From NCBI GenBank assembly GCA_021323735.1, contig JAJPKM010000025.1, positions 62,001 through 126,000 of the forward strand: a stretch of 64,000 nucleotides of DNA, given 5' to 3'. Under the pieces are notes generated by a model, which saw only the letters and a program-made list of their open reading frames with translations, ran no database searches and was not told where the DNA came from. The position numbers were made by a program, and so were the translations under genes. This DNA comes from Gammaproteobacteria bacterium. Its GTDB lineage: Bacteria > Pseudomonadota > Gammaproteobacteria > Steroidobacterales > Steroidobacteraceae. Within the stretch, counting starts at the first letter, position 1; each line of letters opens with the position of its first letter. Shown one piece after another: positions 2,235-8,253 of the stretch.

Positions 2235-4625
2235 CTAAAGGAATTTCTCGAGCGATAGGCGCAGTTCATCCATGGTCTGCGCCCTTTTGGCCTTGTCCAG
2301 CGACATGCACTTCATCACCAGGCTGTTCAAATCCGCCGGCAAATCTTTGTTGATTTCGATGGGCGGACGCGCCTTGCCCTGCACATGCTGATACATGACC
2401 GACATGTGATCGCCGCGGGAATAGGGCGGAACACCCGTGAACATCTCGTACAAGATGACCCCTAGGCTGTAGATATCCGCGCGCTCGTCGACTTTCTTGC
2501 CCAGAATCTGCTCCGGCGCCATGTATTTCGGCGAGCCGATGACATACCCGGTCTTGGTCAATTGCGTATCGCCCTGGCTCTGGGCCGCCGCCACACCGAA
2601 GTCGACGATCTTGAGCAGACCGTCGTTGTCGATCAGCACGTTGGCCGGCTTCAAGTCGCGGTGCACGATGCCTGCCTGATGAGCCACCGCCATCCCGGTC
2701 GCGATATCGATGCCGAATTTTACGGCGCGCTTGAGCGCCACCGGCTTCTCGTTGACGATCTCTCCGCCCAGCGTGTGCGACGGGAAGTACTCCATGGAGA
2801 TCGCATAATTGCCGCGGATGTACAGAAAGTCATAGATGCGGATGACATTCTTGTGGGTGATCTTGCGGCTGTAGCGCAGCTCATGCACGAAGCGCTTCAT
2901 CATCTCCTCGTCGGAGGAGACGTTCGGGTTCAAGAATTTCAAGATCAAACGCTCTTCCACCACGGTGTCTTCCATGAGCAATACCGTGCCGAAGGCACCC
3001 TTGCCTATCTTCTCGATGAACTTGTAGCGGCCCTCGATGACATCTCCCGGCTTCAGGGTCGCAATGTCGAGCTTTGCGGTCGCCGCGGAATCCTCGCTGC
3101 GCTTGATGGCATTGGTCAGCGCTGCGTTGTCGATGAGCAGCGTCTTGGCGGGTTCCTGCATCTTTTCCGCGCGCTGGTTCGCCGCGACTTGCTGCGTCGA
3201 GAAACGATTGTCCAGTTCCTGGATCGCGCGTGCGACCGCCTGGCTCAGCGTGCCGTCCGCGGTCGTCGAGACTGCCTGTAAACGCACCCGTACGGTATCG
3301 GCGCGCCGCTCGTCCGCGAGCTTGGCCAACGCGGCGATGGCCTCGACTTTGATCTCGTTTTCCGGCCGCGCCAACATGGGCAGCAGGCTCTCGAGGCTCT
3401 TTTGATCGCCGATTTTCCCGATGGCACGGATCACGGTGGGCAGGGACTTTGCCTCGCCCGACAGCATGTCGAGGAATCGCGGCAGCGCCTTGGAGCTGCC
3501 GATCTCCGCCAGCGCATCCACCGCGCGCTCGCTGACCCACCAATCCGGGTCGCGGGTGGCCTCGATGAGCTGGGCCACGGCGCGCTCGTCCTTGGTCTGG
3601 TTGAGGATTTCGATGGCGGCGCGGCGAATGTCCTGATTCTCGTCCTTGATCAACGCCAGCACCGCATCGACCACGCGCGGACCGCCGATCTTGCCCAGCG
3701 CATCGGCGGCACGGGTGCGTACCCACCAGTCGCTATCGGCAATGACCTCCAACAAATACTTGACCGACTTCGATGTGCCCACGACGTTCAGCACTTCCAC
3801 TGCGGCGCGCCGGGCATACTCATTCTCATCCTTGAGCACATCCACCAGATACTTGATGGTGTCGGGGTGGTTGACCTTCACGACCACATCGACCGCTTTG
3901 TTTTGCACCTCGATCTCAGGATCGCGCAGCATGCCGATGAGCAGCGCGATGTCGAAGCTCCCATCCATCTTGACGAGCGCCGACAACGCCGCCGAGCGGA
4001 TGAATTTGCTGCCGTCCTTGAGCTGTTTCTGTATGGCTTGCTGAACCGCAGGGAGGTTGAAGCGCGCCAACACGTTGATGATGTGCAAGCGCGCGACCGG
4101 GTCCTTGCCTTCGATCCGGGCCAGCAAGTCATCCACCGAGGATTCGTCGGCGACTTCGCCGATGACCTTGAACAACCCGTTTCTCTCGCTGGGCTCCTGG
4201 GCGTAGGCGGCATTCAACAGCTCGCGCACGGTATAGCGGGCCTTCTGAGCGGCGATGACGTCCAACAGCGCTTGCTTGGGCATGCCCGGCTTGTTCAACG
4301 CCTCGAGAATCGCTTGGGCCGGGTAATTGCGGCTGGTGGACAACGCCCAGGCGATTCCGGACATGGCGCGGCCGTTGGCCTCCGACATGGTTTTCAGCAG
4401 CGTCGGCAGGGTTTTCGAATCGATGAGACGGGAAAGGGCTTCGACGTAGGCCGTCGTCTCGCGCTTTTCCGAGGTGGCCAGCGCATCGACGATGGGGTCG
4501 ATGGCGTCGGATCCCAAGGCAACCAGTTTTTGCAGCGCCTGCTGCGCCAGCGGGCTGCTCGGATTCCCACTGGATTTGACTTCGGCAATCAGCCGATCGG
4601 CACGGTAATTGGCGAATAGACTCAT
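2235..4625 (-). CDS. HEAT-repeat Ser/Thr protein kinase
   Basis: A 796-residue fusion. Roughly residues 1-430 are tandem HEAT/PBS-type helical repeats (recurring motifs such as DPDWWVSERAVDALAEIG and EYARRAAVEVL), which normally form a protein-binding solenoid. A linker follows, then a Hanks-type kinase domain from about residue 527: Gly loop GKGAFGTV, probable ATP-binding Lys563 (LILKF), catalytic HRDLKPAN around 655-662, DFG at 675 and APE in the activation segment. All catalytic residues look intact. There is no membrane segment, so it is probably cytoplasmic. It sits directly upstream of two PilT ATPases, making the pilus machinery a plausible target; that link is inference from position only. 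Confidence 0.9.
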   Translation of the reverse strand: MSLFANYRADRLIAEVKSSGNPSSPLAQQALQKLVALGSDAIDPIVDALATSEKRETTAYVEALSRLIDSKTLPTLLKTMSEANGRAMSGIAWALSTSRNYPAQAILEALNKPGMPKQALLDVIAAQKARYTVRELLNAAYAQEPSERNGLFKVIGEVADESSVDDLLARIEGKDPVARLHIINVLARFNLPAVQQAIQKQLKDGSKFIRSAALSALVKMDGSFDIALLIGMLRDPEIEVQNKAVDVVVKVNHPDTIKYLVDVLKDENEYARRAAVEVLNVVGTSKSVKYLLEVIADSDWWVRTRAADALGKIGGPRVVDAVLALIKDENQDIRRAAIEILNQTKDERAVAQLIEATRDPDWWVSERAVDALAEIGSSKALPRFLDMLSGEAKSLPTVIRAIGKIGDQKSLESLLPMLARPENEIKVEAIAALAKLADERRADTVRVRLQAVSTTADGTLSQAVARAIQELDNRFSTQQVAANQRAEKMQEPAKTLLIDNAALTNAIKRSEDSAATAKLDIATLKPGDVIEGRYKFIEKIGKGAFGTVLLMEDTVVEERLILKFLNPNVSSDEEMMKRFVHELRYSRKITHKNVIRIYDFLYIRGNYAISMEYFPSHTLGGEIVNEKPVALKRAVKFGIDIATGMAVAHQAGIVHRDLKPANVLIDNDGLLKIVDFGVAAAQSQGDTQLTKTGYVIGSPKYMAPEQILGKKVDERADIYSLGVILYEMFTGVPPYSRGDHMSVMYQHVQGKARPPIEINKDLPADLNSLVMKCMSLDKAKRAQTMDELRLSLEKFL

Positions 4626-4748
4626 TCGGCGCCTAAGTTAAACGGTCCGCGGAAGTTTTGCCCATTGTTACCCTAATTCAGGCGCGATCCATGGTCTTGA
4701 ATCTCAATCTAGAATTATGCCATACGTCACGCTTTTATCCGCGTGCGG

Positions 4749-4754
4749 TACAAT
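4749..4754 (+). promoter_or_regulatory. putative -10 box of mrp-dcd
   Basis: TACAAT lies 11 nt before the chosen mrp ATG, which would give a leader of about 5 nt. No good -35 hexamer is seen at 16-18 nt upstream. Tentative. Confidence 0.35.
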
Positions 4755-4765
4755 CGCCGTCCCTT

Positions 4766-5866
4766 ATGAATCACCTCCCTGCCGCGGAAAGTGCCATCCG
4801 CGAGAAATTAAGCGCCTATACGGATCCCTACCTGGGCCAGTCCCTGGGGGATGCCAAGGCTGTCGGCCCGATCAAATGCCATGGCGGCGTCGTATCCCTG
4901 GAATTGGTGCTGGGGTTTCCGTGTAACGACTATGTAATGGAATTGCAGGCCGCCCTCGAAGAGCACCTCAAGTCCGTGCTGGGCGGCGCGCGGCTGGAGC
5001 TGAATTTGCGCGCTCAGATCACCGCGCACGCGGTCCAGCGCACGCTCAAACCCCTGACGAACGTCAAGAATGTGGTGGCGGTCGCCTCGGGCAAGGGAGG
5101 CGTCGGCAAGTCGACGACCGCGGCCAATCTTGCCCTGGCCTGGGCGGCGCAGGGTGCCAAGGTGGGGTTGCTGGATGCGGACATCTACGGCCCCAGCCAG
5201 CCGCTGATGATGGGTTTGAGCGGCTTAAAGCCGGTGAGTACCGACGGCAAGCACATGGCCCCTCTGAAGGCACATGGGGTCGAAGTGATGTCCATCGGCT
5301 TCATGATCGATCAGGAACAGCCGATGGCCTGGCGCGGACCGATGGTCACCCAGGCGCTGACCCAGCTGCTCGGCGATACCACCTGGGGTGATCTGGACTA
5401 TCTGGTGGTGGACATGCCGCCCGGAACCGGCGATATCCAGCTCACGCTGGCGCAACGGGTTCCGGTGAGCGGCGCGGTCATCGTGACTACCCCGCAGGAC
5501 ATTGCCCTGCTGGACGCCCGCAAGGGCCTCAAGATGTTCGAAAAGGTTGAAGTGCGGGTACTCGGGGTGGTCGAGAACATGAGCATGCATGTGTGCACCC
5601 GGTGCGGCCACGTGGAGCATGTTTTCGGCAGCGGCGGCGGGGCGCGCATGGCGGCCCAATACGGCGTGCAACTGCTGGGCGAGCTGCCCTTGGACACCCG
5701 CATTCGGGAAGATGCGGACGGTGGGTCCCCGACCGTGGTGTCCGAACCCGGGAGCGAACGCGCCCGCGCTTATTTCCTGATGGCGCGCCGCACGGCGGCG
5801 CGCTTGGCCACGCTGAACAAAGACTACAGCCGTGCGTTTCCGAAGATCACGGTCGAAGCAACCTAA
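4766..5866 (+). CDS. mrp: Mrp/ApbC-type iron-sulfur cluster carrier ATPase
   Basis: P-loop ATPase of the Mrp/NBP35 family, a cytosolic scaffold that carries Fe-S clusters to apoproteins. From the N-terminus it has a MIP18/DUF59-like domain (about residues 1-95), the deviant Walker [21 protein letters not shown], Walker B-like DMPPGTGD and a C-terminal CTRCG pair that should bridge the cluster in a dimer. The chosen ATG (MNHLPAAES) gives 366 residues, normal for the family; an in-frame start 36 codons upstream would add a non-conserved extension across the putative -10 box. Its TAA stop shares one base with the dcd start (TAATG), so the two are co-translated. mrp next to dcd is common in gammaproteobacteria. 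Confidence 0.95.
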
Positions 5867-8253
5867 TGAGCATAAAAAGCGATCGTTGGATCCGGCGCAT
5901 GTCCGCCGAACACGGCATGATCGAACCGTTCTCCGCGCAGCAGGTCCGTGTCGCGGACGGCCACAAAATCGTCTCCTACGGTACGTCGAGCTACGGCTAT
6001 GACGTGCGCTGCGCCGAAGACTTCAAGATATTCACCAACATCAACTCGACCATCGTCGATCCGAAGGCCTTCGACGAGAAATCCTTCGTCGACTTCAAGG
6101 GGCCGGTGTGCATCATTCCGCCGAACTCCTTCGCGCTCGCCAGCACGGTGGAATATTTTCGGATTCCGCGCAGCGTTTTGACCGTATGTTTGGGAAAGTG
6201 CGTCACAGGCGACACCCGAGTGGTTGACGCCGATACCGGCGCGTACCTGCCGATTACGGAAATGCGTTGGGGTAAATCGACGCTAGCGCTCGATGGTTCC
6301 TGGCGGCTCAAAGCGGCAAAAGTGTCGGCATTCGTGCCACAGGGCAAGAAAGAGGTCTTTGAACTGCGAACCCGCGCCGGTTTGCGTATTCGCGCCACGG
6401 CCAATCACCCCTTCCTCAAGCTAAAGGGATGGGTGCCGCTCAGCGACTTGCGCCCGGGCGATCGGATCGCGGCCGCTCGCGATATTCCGGTCTTCGGCAA
6501 GACGTCGATTCCCGATTGGGAAGCGAGCTTGCTGGGATTGATGATCTCGGAAGGGCAATGCGACACTCCCGGGCACAGCCCGACTTACACCACGGCCGAT
6601 CCGGCAATGGTTGATTTGTTGAAAAGGTGCATGGCGGATTCCGGTATGGGGGTCGTCACGTTCAATGGACGCTACGGCTACCGTCTCGTCAATAGGCGAG
6701 GCCGAGGCGGCGTACCCGAACGCAATCGAGCGCACTCATGGCTGCAGAAATACCAATTGAATATTGGAGCGGGTGAGAAGTTTGTTCCGCAGAGCGTATT
6801 CACCGCGCCTGAAAGCTCGGTTCGATTGTTCCTTCAATCGCTATTCAGCGGCGACGGCAGCGTGTACAGCTCTGAAGCCGGGGTGTTTCTCGAGTACTAC
6901 TCGAAATCCCGAAGGCTGATCGAGGATGTGCACCATCTATTGCTTCGATTCGGCGTGTTCTCGCTGATTCGCGAGAAAATCACAGCCATCGGAACGCGTG
7001 CTTGCAAAATCCAAATTACCGATAAGGATCAGATCCGGCGCTTTGCAGAGAGGATCGGCTTCACTCCGGGCTCCCTGAAGCAACAACGGCTTGACGTTGA
7101 AGTGCTGCCGATGATTCGAGCCCGGCCGAGGCGTCGAAGCAACTTCGACACGCTGCCCGCGGAGGCCTGGCCCATGATCGGCATGGCGGCACGCGTGGGC
7201 GGTGTGTCGTTGAGCTCGCTCAATATTCATACGCAGCCAGGCCAGTCGGTGCCCTTCTATGCGGCAACCCAGGTGGCGCTGGCAACAGGGGATATGTACG
7301 TCAGTCCTCTTGTCGACGGGCCGATGTGGGACGTCGTCGAGAGCATTGAGCCGGCGGGCGAAGAAGAGGTGTTCGATATCTCTGTGCCGAAGCTGCACAA
7401 CTTCGTGGCCAATGATCTCATTGTGCATAATTCGACCTACGCAAGATGCTTTTCAGGCAACACCCGCGTCGCGTTGGTCGATGGAACATCGCCGACTCTC
7501 GAGGAAATGGCCAGAAGGCACGACTCGGGCGAACTGTTCTGGGGATATAGCATGGGCGAGAACCGTCGCCTGATCGTCAGCCTTTTGGATGCGCCTCGAT
7601 TTATCGGTCGAGATTCACTGCTTGAAATTGAACTGGATAACGGCGAACGGATCCGGGCGACGCCCGATCATTTGTTCATGAAGCGAGACGGGCGGATGGC
7701 GGCAGCACACACGCTTCGCCCCGAAGATGCACTGATGCCGTTATATCGCGACCTGTTCCGCGGCTATGAACACGTTTACCAGCCGATTGATGGAGATCTT
7801 TACCCCACCTGCGCGCTTGCCAATGAATGGAACGTCAGGCACAAGATCTACGATGACGTTCCACGGAAGCATCGCCACATTCCAGAGGTAATCAAGCAGT
7901 TCAAGGGAATGTCCGCTTATCGCAATCACAAAGTCGCGGCGGTGCGCGAGATTGCCGGTGACCACGATGTGTATTGTCTGACGGTCCCCGAAGCGGGCAA
8001 TTTTGCTTTGCAGGCCGGCGTGTTCGTTAAGAATTGCGGAATTATAGTCAACGTAACGCCTTTGGAGCCCGAATGGGAAGGGCACGTGACGCTGGAATTC
8101 TCCAATACCACGCCGCTGCCCGCGAAAATCTATGCCAACGAAGGCGTGGCGCAAATGCTGTTCTTCGAATCCGATGAGGTCTGCGAGACCTCATACCGCG
8201 ATCGCGGCGGCAAATACCAGGGCCAGCGCGGCGTCACTCTGCCGAAGACTTAA
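5866..8253 (+). CDS. dcd: dCTP deaminase precursor with two inteins
   Basis: Makes dUTP from dCTP, feeding dTTP synthesis. The 795-residue precursor consists of N-extein 1-111, intein 1 (112-522), a five-residue extein STYAR (523-527), intein 2 (528-723) and C-extein 724-795. Joining the exteins gives a 188-residue protein with continuous Pseudomonas-type Dcd sequence: [23 protein letters not shown], then the Glu-containing HVTLEF and a C-terminal [12 protein letters not shown]. The small extein holds the counterparts of E. coli Dcd Ser111 and Arg115, so no active site exists until both inteins are removed. The ATG overlaps the mrp stop; the open frame continues upstream but only inside mrp. 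The stop overlaps the convergent DUF3108 stop within TTAA. Confidence 0.96.
6199..7431 (+). mobile_element. Dcd intein 1 with LAGLIDADG homing endonuclease
   Basis: A 411-residue, apparently complete intein between Lys111 of Dcd and the next extein Ser. Block A starts [10 protein letters not shown] (nucleophile Cys1), block B holds TANHPF (intein residues 67-72), block F is [12 protein letters not shown] (391-402) and block G ends LIVHN followed by +1 Ser, so the F-block His, penultimate His and terminal Asn are all present. Two LAGLIDADG-like helices, [10 protein letters not shown] (about 110-119) and LQSLFSGDG (about 212-220), each end in an acidic residue, as needed for a homing endonuclease. 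Both splicing and homing activity look plausible. Confidence 0.93.
7432..7446 (+). other. dcd: five-codon extein island between the two inteins
   Basis: Fifteen bases encoding Ser-Thr-Tyr-Ala-Arg are the only Dcd sequence between intein 1 and intein 2. The peptide is required to complete the conserved GKSTYARCG segment; Ser and Arg correspond to the nucleotide-binding/catalytic residues of the family. It must be ligated on both sides to make enzyme. Confidence 0.92.
7447..8034 (+). mobile_element. Dcd intein 2, mini-intein with decayed endonuclease region
   Basis: A 196-residue intein between Arg of STYAR and the native Cys of CGIIVN. Block [11 protein letters not shown] and block B ATPDHLFM (71-78) are clear; block F reads [14 protein letters not shown] and block G GVFVKN followed by +1 Cys. 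The usual F-block His (as in HNF) is Gly and the penultimate His is Lys, while the terminal Asn is kept. Residues about 107-147 ([26 protein letters not shown]) resemble the start of HNH endonuclease inserts of other inteins, but the rest of such a domain is missing, suggesting deletion. Splicing rate is uncertain; homing is probably lost. Confidence 0.88.

Follow-up and report, generated by a model that had tools for sequence, protein, structure and literature searches.

The dcd gene in the window, by which we mean the whole stretch of 64,000 nucleotides of gammaproteobacterial DNA that was analysed, is interrupted by two inteins that lie only five residues of the host protein apart. We conclude that these are very probably two independently acquired inteins, a and b, that were stacked by sequential homing and that both splice autocatalytically. 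Most likely, one intein joined an allele that already held the other, rather than the two arriving by transfer of a fixed pair. Each Hint domain would excise itself after translation by ordinary Cys-initiated splicing, where a would splice onto a +1 Ser and b onto a +1 Cys, perhaps in either order. The end product of both splicings would be a normal Dcd of 188 aa.

The precursor is encoded in one open frame on the plus strand (5866..8253, ATG at 5866, stop codon at 8251-8253) that translates into 795 aa and is supported by model matches. All of its parts are encoded on the plus strand. It begins with the Dcd N-extein of 111 aa (5866..6198), which ends in VCLGK and matches TIGR02274; precursor residues 1-112 have 85-95% identity to Dcds of the same genus. 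Intein a (6199..7431, 411 aa) combines a Hint domain with a LAGLIDADG endonuclease and has Cys1, a block B reading TANH and an HN/S end (junction VHN/S; a slash marks a splice junction throughout). It is followed by the five codons of the linker STYAR (7432..7446), which is the C-extein of a and the N-extein of b. Intein b (7447..8034) is a mini-intein of 196 aa with Cys1, a block B reading TPDH and a KN/C end (junction VKN/C). The Dcd C-extein and stop codon (8035..8253) again match TIGR02274, and residues 723-795 have 95-99% identity to Dcds of the same genus. Lys111 directly precedes site a (GK/S), and Arg116 precedes site b (YAR/C). Immediately upstream, a plus-strand ORF (4658..5866) resembles an Mrp/ApbC-type ATPase by eye (GKGGVGKST), judging from its sequence alone; the last base of its TAA stop codon doubles as the A of the dcd ATG. 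A minus-strand frame of 796 aa (window 2235-4625) appears by eye to combine HEAT-like repeats with a Ser/Thr protein kinase domain.

Searches of the precursor with protein models agree with this layout. In Pfam, Intein_splicing matches in two stretches (E 9.3e-40), in addition to DCD (1.5e-23) and LAGLIDADG_3 (6e-19), and the endonuclease model PF14528 scores 68.5 bits on intein a (cut-off 22.5). In NCBIfam, the dCTP_deam model TIGR02274 scores 123.6 bits (cut-off 92.8), and both intein_Nterm (TIGR01445) and intein_Cterm (TIGR01443) match in two stretches each. A first-pass annotation had placed two inteins in dcd, and frame reading, Pfam and NCBIfam agree with its junctions, lengths and STYAR linker to the base. 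The protein search that it proposed as a check finds both intein end models twice plus DCD, and the layout recurs in other species. Joining the flanks and the linker gives a Dcd of 188 aa, as that annotation had claimed; the 13 Dcds from the same genus that were read directly as intein-free (L013-L025) all have this length as well, each with an uninterrupted GKSTYARCG.

This motif is present in the window's protein after joining, and its conservation around both sites, also claimed earlier, is borne out: G110, K111, S523, T524, Y525, A526, R527, C724 and G725 do not vary among the 63 aligned rows, and one relative outside this alignment (L182) has STFAR in place of STYAR. The solved Dcd 4dhk aligns to one of the intein-free same-genus Dcds without gaps across GKSTYARCG. 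We take the Ser and Arg of the linker to be active-site residues of Dcd, matching E. coli Ser111 and Arg115. An AlphaFold2 model of the full precursor, based on the 63 rows, has a mean pLDDT of 82.2 and a pTM of 0.62. Both Hint domains are predicted with good confidence, with ten-residue blocks mostly at pLDDT 76-95; the HNH remnant of b (661-690) has pLDDT 43-66, and linker residues 524-526 lie below 50. In Foldseek, the model matches the TliVMA intein 7qss, PI-PfuI 1dq3, the intein endonuclease 2cw7 and Dcd 4dhk. Such matches to solved inteins and to Dcd fit two inteins in one Dcd.

To what extent the layout recurs can be seen from a DNA pattern search for the b-site in genome_contigs, which yielded at least 117 stretches. 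Of the 117 matches listed, 116 are inteins at the b-site of Dcd, and the remaining one (L048) matches by chance. Among the matches listed, the hosts belong to Pseudomonadota, Chloroflexota, Cyanobacteriota, Acidobacteriota, Planctomycetota, Gemmatimonadota, Elusimicrobiota and Bipolaricaulota. At least five further doubles with the STYAR linker are found among the 116: L030 (a Thermoflexales MAG), L072 (Gammaproteobacteria SJ706), L076 (Chromatium okenii DSM 169, a stretch without the start of dcd), L110 (SZAS-89) and L142 (GL140_5_concoct_220_sub). Together with the window's genome (G000), doubles occur in at least six species. As the same two junctions are present in other species, the layout in the window is therefore not due to chance. 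The dcd of L030 probably contains a third intein of 341 aa (L030:2929-3951), 12 residues after b (VTPFEP/C...GN/CWEG), whose models stay below their cut-offs (Hint 27.1 bits, cut-off 29.7; intein_Nterm 18.8, cut-off 24.5).

In viral_contigs, we found no double inteins of phages: the pattern for the C-junction of a has 0 matches, and no relative of intein a was confirmed there. All seven viral b-site matches have GKS upstream and hence lack intein a; the C-junction of b is seen in four of the seven. One viral contig (L005:17-892, IMGVR_UViG_3300009529_001716) has 36% identity to residues 28-196 of intein b.

The two inteins represent distinct lineages, each with its own site, and they are distributed separately. 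Across 40 genomes (the window's own and 39 others), a occurs alone in two (G013, G017), b alone in four (G008, G016, G020, G023) and both in one (G000). The pieces of Dcd abut in the other 33, of which 13 were read directly as empty. Single-intein and empty alleles are thus found within the same genus, which speaks for sequential homing. In the family (217 genomes), a is present in 15, b in 32 and both in three (G000, G496, G636), where the latter two are the doubles L110 and L142. The count for a comprises 14 genomes at E 1e-80 or better and G667 from the pattern search; for b, all 27 genomes read at the DNA level have the intein at the Dcd b-site, and G773, G777, G780, G784 and G788 are counted unread. 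Independence predicts 2.21 doubles in the family, and three were observed (P(>=3) = 0.385). The frequency of the double in the family is close to that expected if a and b co-reside by chance. Across the order (396 genomes, with 13 carriers of a, 27 of b and three of both), 0.89 doubles are expected, which gives a weak excess (P 0.051). This excess arises because both inteins are found in one family only, with every carrier within it, and it disappears when only the 171 family members (hand count) are used (P 0.337). These tests ignore phylogeny and rest on three doubles. A class-wide survey of 369 genomes with an empty Dcd as query was kept out of the counts.

An alternative to sequential homing is that a and b travel together as one unit, so that the double is a single mobile cassette. 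The weak order-wide excess points in this direction and against separate arrival, as does the grouping of L030 with L076: they fall in the same clade of 13 rows in the tree of 108 b inteins (support 96/89) and pair in the tree of 18 a inteins (94/84), so that the two inteins may have been transferred as a pair in that case. Against co-homing, a-only and b-only alleles outnumber doubles in both the 40-genome and the family set, and the b inteins of four doubles are closest to b-only rows. In the b tree, L076 pairs with the b-only L088 (100/99), and b-only rows are also the partners of L142 (three proteobacterial rows, 97/98), of L072 (four rows, 89/93) and of the window's row L006 (rows of its own genus, 88/90); L110 joins another long branch and its placement is unsure. 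In the a tree, L142 pairs with the a-only L159 (100/99) and L006 falls among six rows with the a-only G013 and G017 (89/86); L110 (at a weak fork) and L072 are unplaced. Many inner branches of both trees are weak, and the bootstrap of the b tree had not settled. A study of haloarchaeal MCM inteins likewise found no support for co-homing (PMC10643990). A fixed a+b cassette is disfavoured by the family counts and by the trees, and we consider co-homing quite improbable.

Two strains of Chromatium okenii illustrate the difference between single and double alleles, as strain LaCa (L088) has b alone and DSM 169 (L076) has a and b. The LaCa intein is nearly the same b in the absence of a, which also speaks against joint transfer. 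The DNA of b is 97.3% identical between the strains, and identity is 89.5% over the 200 aligned bases that precede site a. Several of the differences are bunched in the last ~20 bases before site a, and the first codon of the linker differs. As a reading of sequence, this pattern fits flank conversion on the arrival of a; the same pattern would result if LaCa had lost a. For two MCM inteins, homing was reported to be better into alleles that hold one of them than into the empty allele (PMC10643990), which fits sequential stacking in dcd.

The first-pass annotation also suggested that splicing may act as a switch. The pair would then be a regulatory device, in which conditional, ordered splicing gates Dcd activity (dUTP/dTTP supply) in two steps. 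Both inserts lie amid invariant active-site residues, so that the unspliced precursor would be expected to be inactive, and b is a HEN-less mini-intein with a constrained splicing domain. Furthermore, the two DnaB inteins of Mycobacterium smegmatis are reported to differ in rate and in their response to stress (PMC6195587). Against a regulatory role stand the sporadic presence of the inteins, with abutting Dcd pieces in 33 of the 40 genomes, and the family doubles that are no commoner than chance. Moreover, E. coli does not strictly require dcd. Regulation by the double is possible, the distribution gives it no support, and we judge it very improbable.

The splicing domains of both inteins are under constraint. 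Between same-genus pairs, the Hint parts have dN 0.10-0.13, with dS above 1.3 or not estimable. Intein a shares 85% identity with the a-only intein of G013 (dN 0.10, dS 1.79; endonuclease part dN 0.09). The endonuclease part of a has dN 0.09-0.11 in the same-genus comparisons (G013, G017), and by these values the endonuclease still looks maintained; the intein a of G017 is 41 residues shorter than the window's, in the endonuclease region. Intein b and its b-only counterpart in G016 are 74% identical, and the Hint part of b has dN 0.11-0.13 against G008, G016 and G020. Residues 116-159 of b, the HNH remnant, have dN 0.36-0.86, with dS not estimable in several pairs. No HNH model of Pfam or NCBIfam matches the window's protein, and an HNH-like sequence is kept, by eye, in b of G008, L012 and CL131. 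The 108 distinct b inteins are between 152 and 422 aa long, with lengths peaking near 376, compared to 196 in the window. We infer that the window's b is a mini-intein that has lost its endonuclease and that derives from a widespread HNH-type family of Dcd inteins. A candidate excess of shortened b inteins in doubles was rejected, as b reaches at least 340 aa in one of six doubles compared to 48 of 102 b-only rows, which is no significant difference (Fisher P 0.22).

Class 1 inteins are characterised by Cys1, block A, a block B TxxH, a penultimate His, a terminal Asn and a +1 Cys, Ser or Thr. Intein a has all of the features tested, including the penultimate His and a restored extein. Intein b has Cys1, block A, the block B TxxH, the terminal Asn, the +1 nucleophile and a restored extein, but Lys in place of the penultimate His, which is usual and not obligatory. 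Its block A reads GNT; Asp is found there in 106 of the 108 distinct b inteins, and the exceptions are the window's b and one reading CFRGNT. Both deviations count against splicing of b, and it might be splicing-defective here, so that Dcd would be inactive or only partly made. We give this a very slim chance. Among the 108, the penultimate residue is His in 52, Ser in 23, Arg in 14, Lys in 12 and another residue in 7; the 56 without His stand in frames that run on into Dcd. This suggests that the penultimate His may be dispensable in about half of the b family. (For this tally, 30 rows were dropped as repeats, and 23 b and two a+b rows without a found b C-junction, most of these 25 taken as cut by stretch ends, were set aside with two unparsed rows.) For intein a, the penultimate His is present in 20 of 20 rows, two of which are repeats. 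The extein and the splicing domain are conserved, and the homologous b intein of phage CL131, which has the same KN/C end, splices in E. coli (PMC6293099). These observations argue for a functional intein b.

Lastly, although the window comes from an assembly of 58 contigs, an assembly or sequencing artefact has virtually no chance, given the same layout in five other species, including the named strain Chromatium okenii DSM 169, whose record is not marked as a MAG. The first-pass annotation had named such an artefact, and a Dcd paralogue that makes this copy dispensable, as outcomes that would speak against its reading; neither was found. In the window's genome, which is 95.94% complete, the search revealed no second dcd, and the only further PF22769 match is dut, a dUTP diphosphatase (205 bits, cut-off 103). 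Outside the window, the same genome has an intein N-terminal match in a frame that is DnaB-like by eye (C3:144225-144446, SDLRE/C...HN/SGAIE) and another at C35:59811-59945.

The two inteins also differ in their relatives. The nearest relatives of a that we saw outside Dcd are inteins of DnaE-type polymerases with 33-34% identity (G014, G023), and DnaB-like inteins of the same family have 28-32% identity to a over nearly the full length; in both cases the hosts were named by eye. As relatives of a, the DnaE-type and DnaB-like inteins L211-L218 carry the start motif CV.G[ED]T. They resemble a in being of LAGLIDADG type, with 28-34% identity over about the full length in the best matches, and differ in their host genes and sites (GFPE/C...HN/SHAAS or SHACS; SDLRE/C...HN/SGAIE). 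L211, L212, L215 and L216 have the intein in a DnaE-type polymerase at GFPE/C and belong to the same bacterial family. An RtcB-type intein model (whole-protein E 1.5e-34) fits best within b, at precursor residues 528-644. Aligned to each other, a and b reach at best 32% identity over 98 aa, and they have different types of endonuclease, which disfavours a tandem duplication of one intein.

When comparing the dcd pair to known systems, the closest match to b is the Dcd intein of the cyanophage vB_AphaS-CL131 (ORF069), which self-excises in E. coli; according to the same report, self-splicing dCTP deaminases were earlier found in two bacteria, from Proteobacteria and Chloroflexi (PMC6293099). 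It shares with b the insertion site STYAR/C, the homologous splicing domain and the KN/C end (PMC6293099), but is a single intein of 352 aa (our own reading) with an HNH endonuclease, in a phage and without a. The MCM-a and MCM-d inteins of Haloferax also are two inteins with separate homing sites and mixed single and double alleles, whereas the host is an archaeal helicase, both have LAGLIDADG and doubles are commoner there than expected (PMC10643990). DnaB of Mycobacterium smegmatis, likewise a bacterial protein, combines one HEN-less mini-intein with one HEN intein; however, its sites lie in different motifs (P-loop, H4) and the mini-intein is of class 3 (PMC6195587). Two inteins per protein are also present in the Thermococcus polymerase, 85 residues apart, and in Pyrococcus abyssi CDC21, 48 apart, as cited in PMC8966425, compared to 5 in dcd.

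The novelty claimed in the first-pass annotation stands in part. In the literature searched (titles and abstracts on Dcd, tandem, adjacent and multiple inteins), we found no report of a double Dcd intein, whereas an intein at the Dcd b-site was already known from CL131 (PMC6293099). The claim is weakened further, as b-site inteins are common and the family doubles are close to chance co-residence. Thus, the b-site intein of Dcd and both kinds of intein are known, and what we add is their close-packed, recurrent double insertion.

At five residues, the spacing is much tighter than in other double inteins, for which 48 and 85 are cited (PMC8966425). For this one housekeeping gene, a single bacterial family has all four kinds of allele, namely empty, a-only, b-only and a+b, and two strains of Chromatium okenii have the b-only and the a+b kind. 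The main value of this system is the test that it offers, with target overlap at 15 bp and a shared extein of five residues. It makes it possible to ask directly whether inteins with overlapping targets hinder or permit each other's homing, and down to what size an extein can be shared by two protein-splicing reactions on one chain. With the usual lengths of homing targets, each insertion at 15 bp would remove part of the other's target. We tentatively propose, as a rather doubtful reading, that the GKSTYARCG segment serves as a stacked homing zone, with cuts by endonucleases of two unrelated families within 15 bp. Residence of one intein should then block the site of the other, yet the family doubles are about as frequent as chance predicts; at least one of the endonucleases would therefore have a short or one-sided target. 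If this is true, splicing would also have to accommodate the STYAR pentapeptide as an extein of both reactions, which may force their order and form a two-step gate on Dcd.
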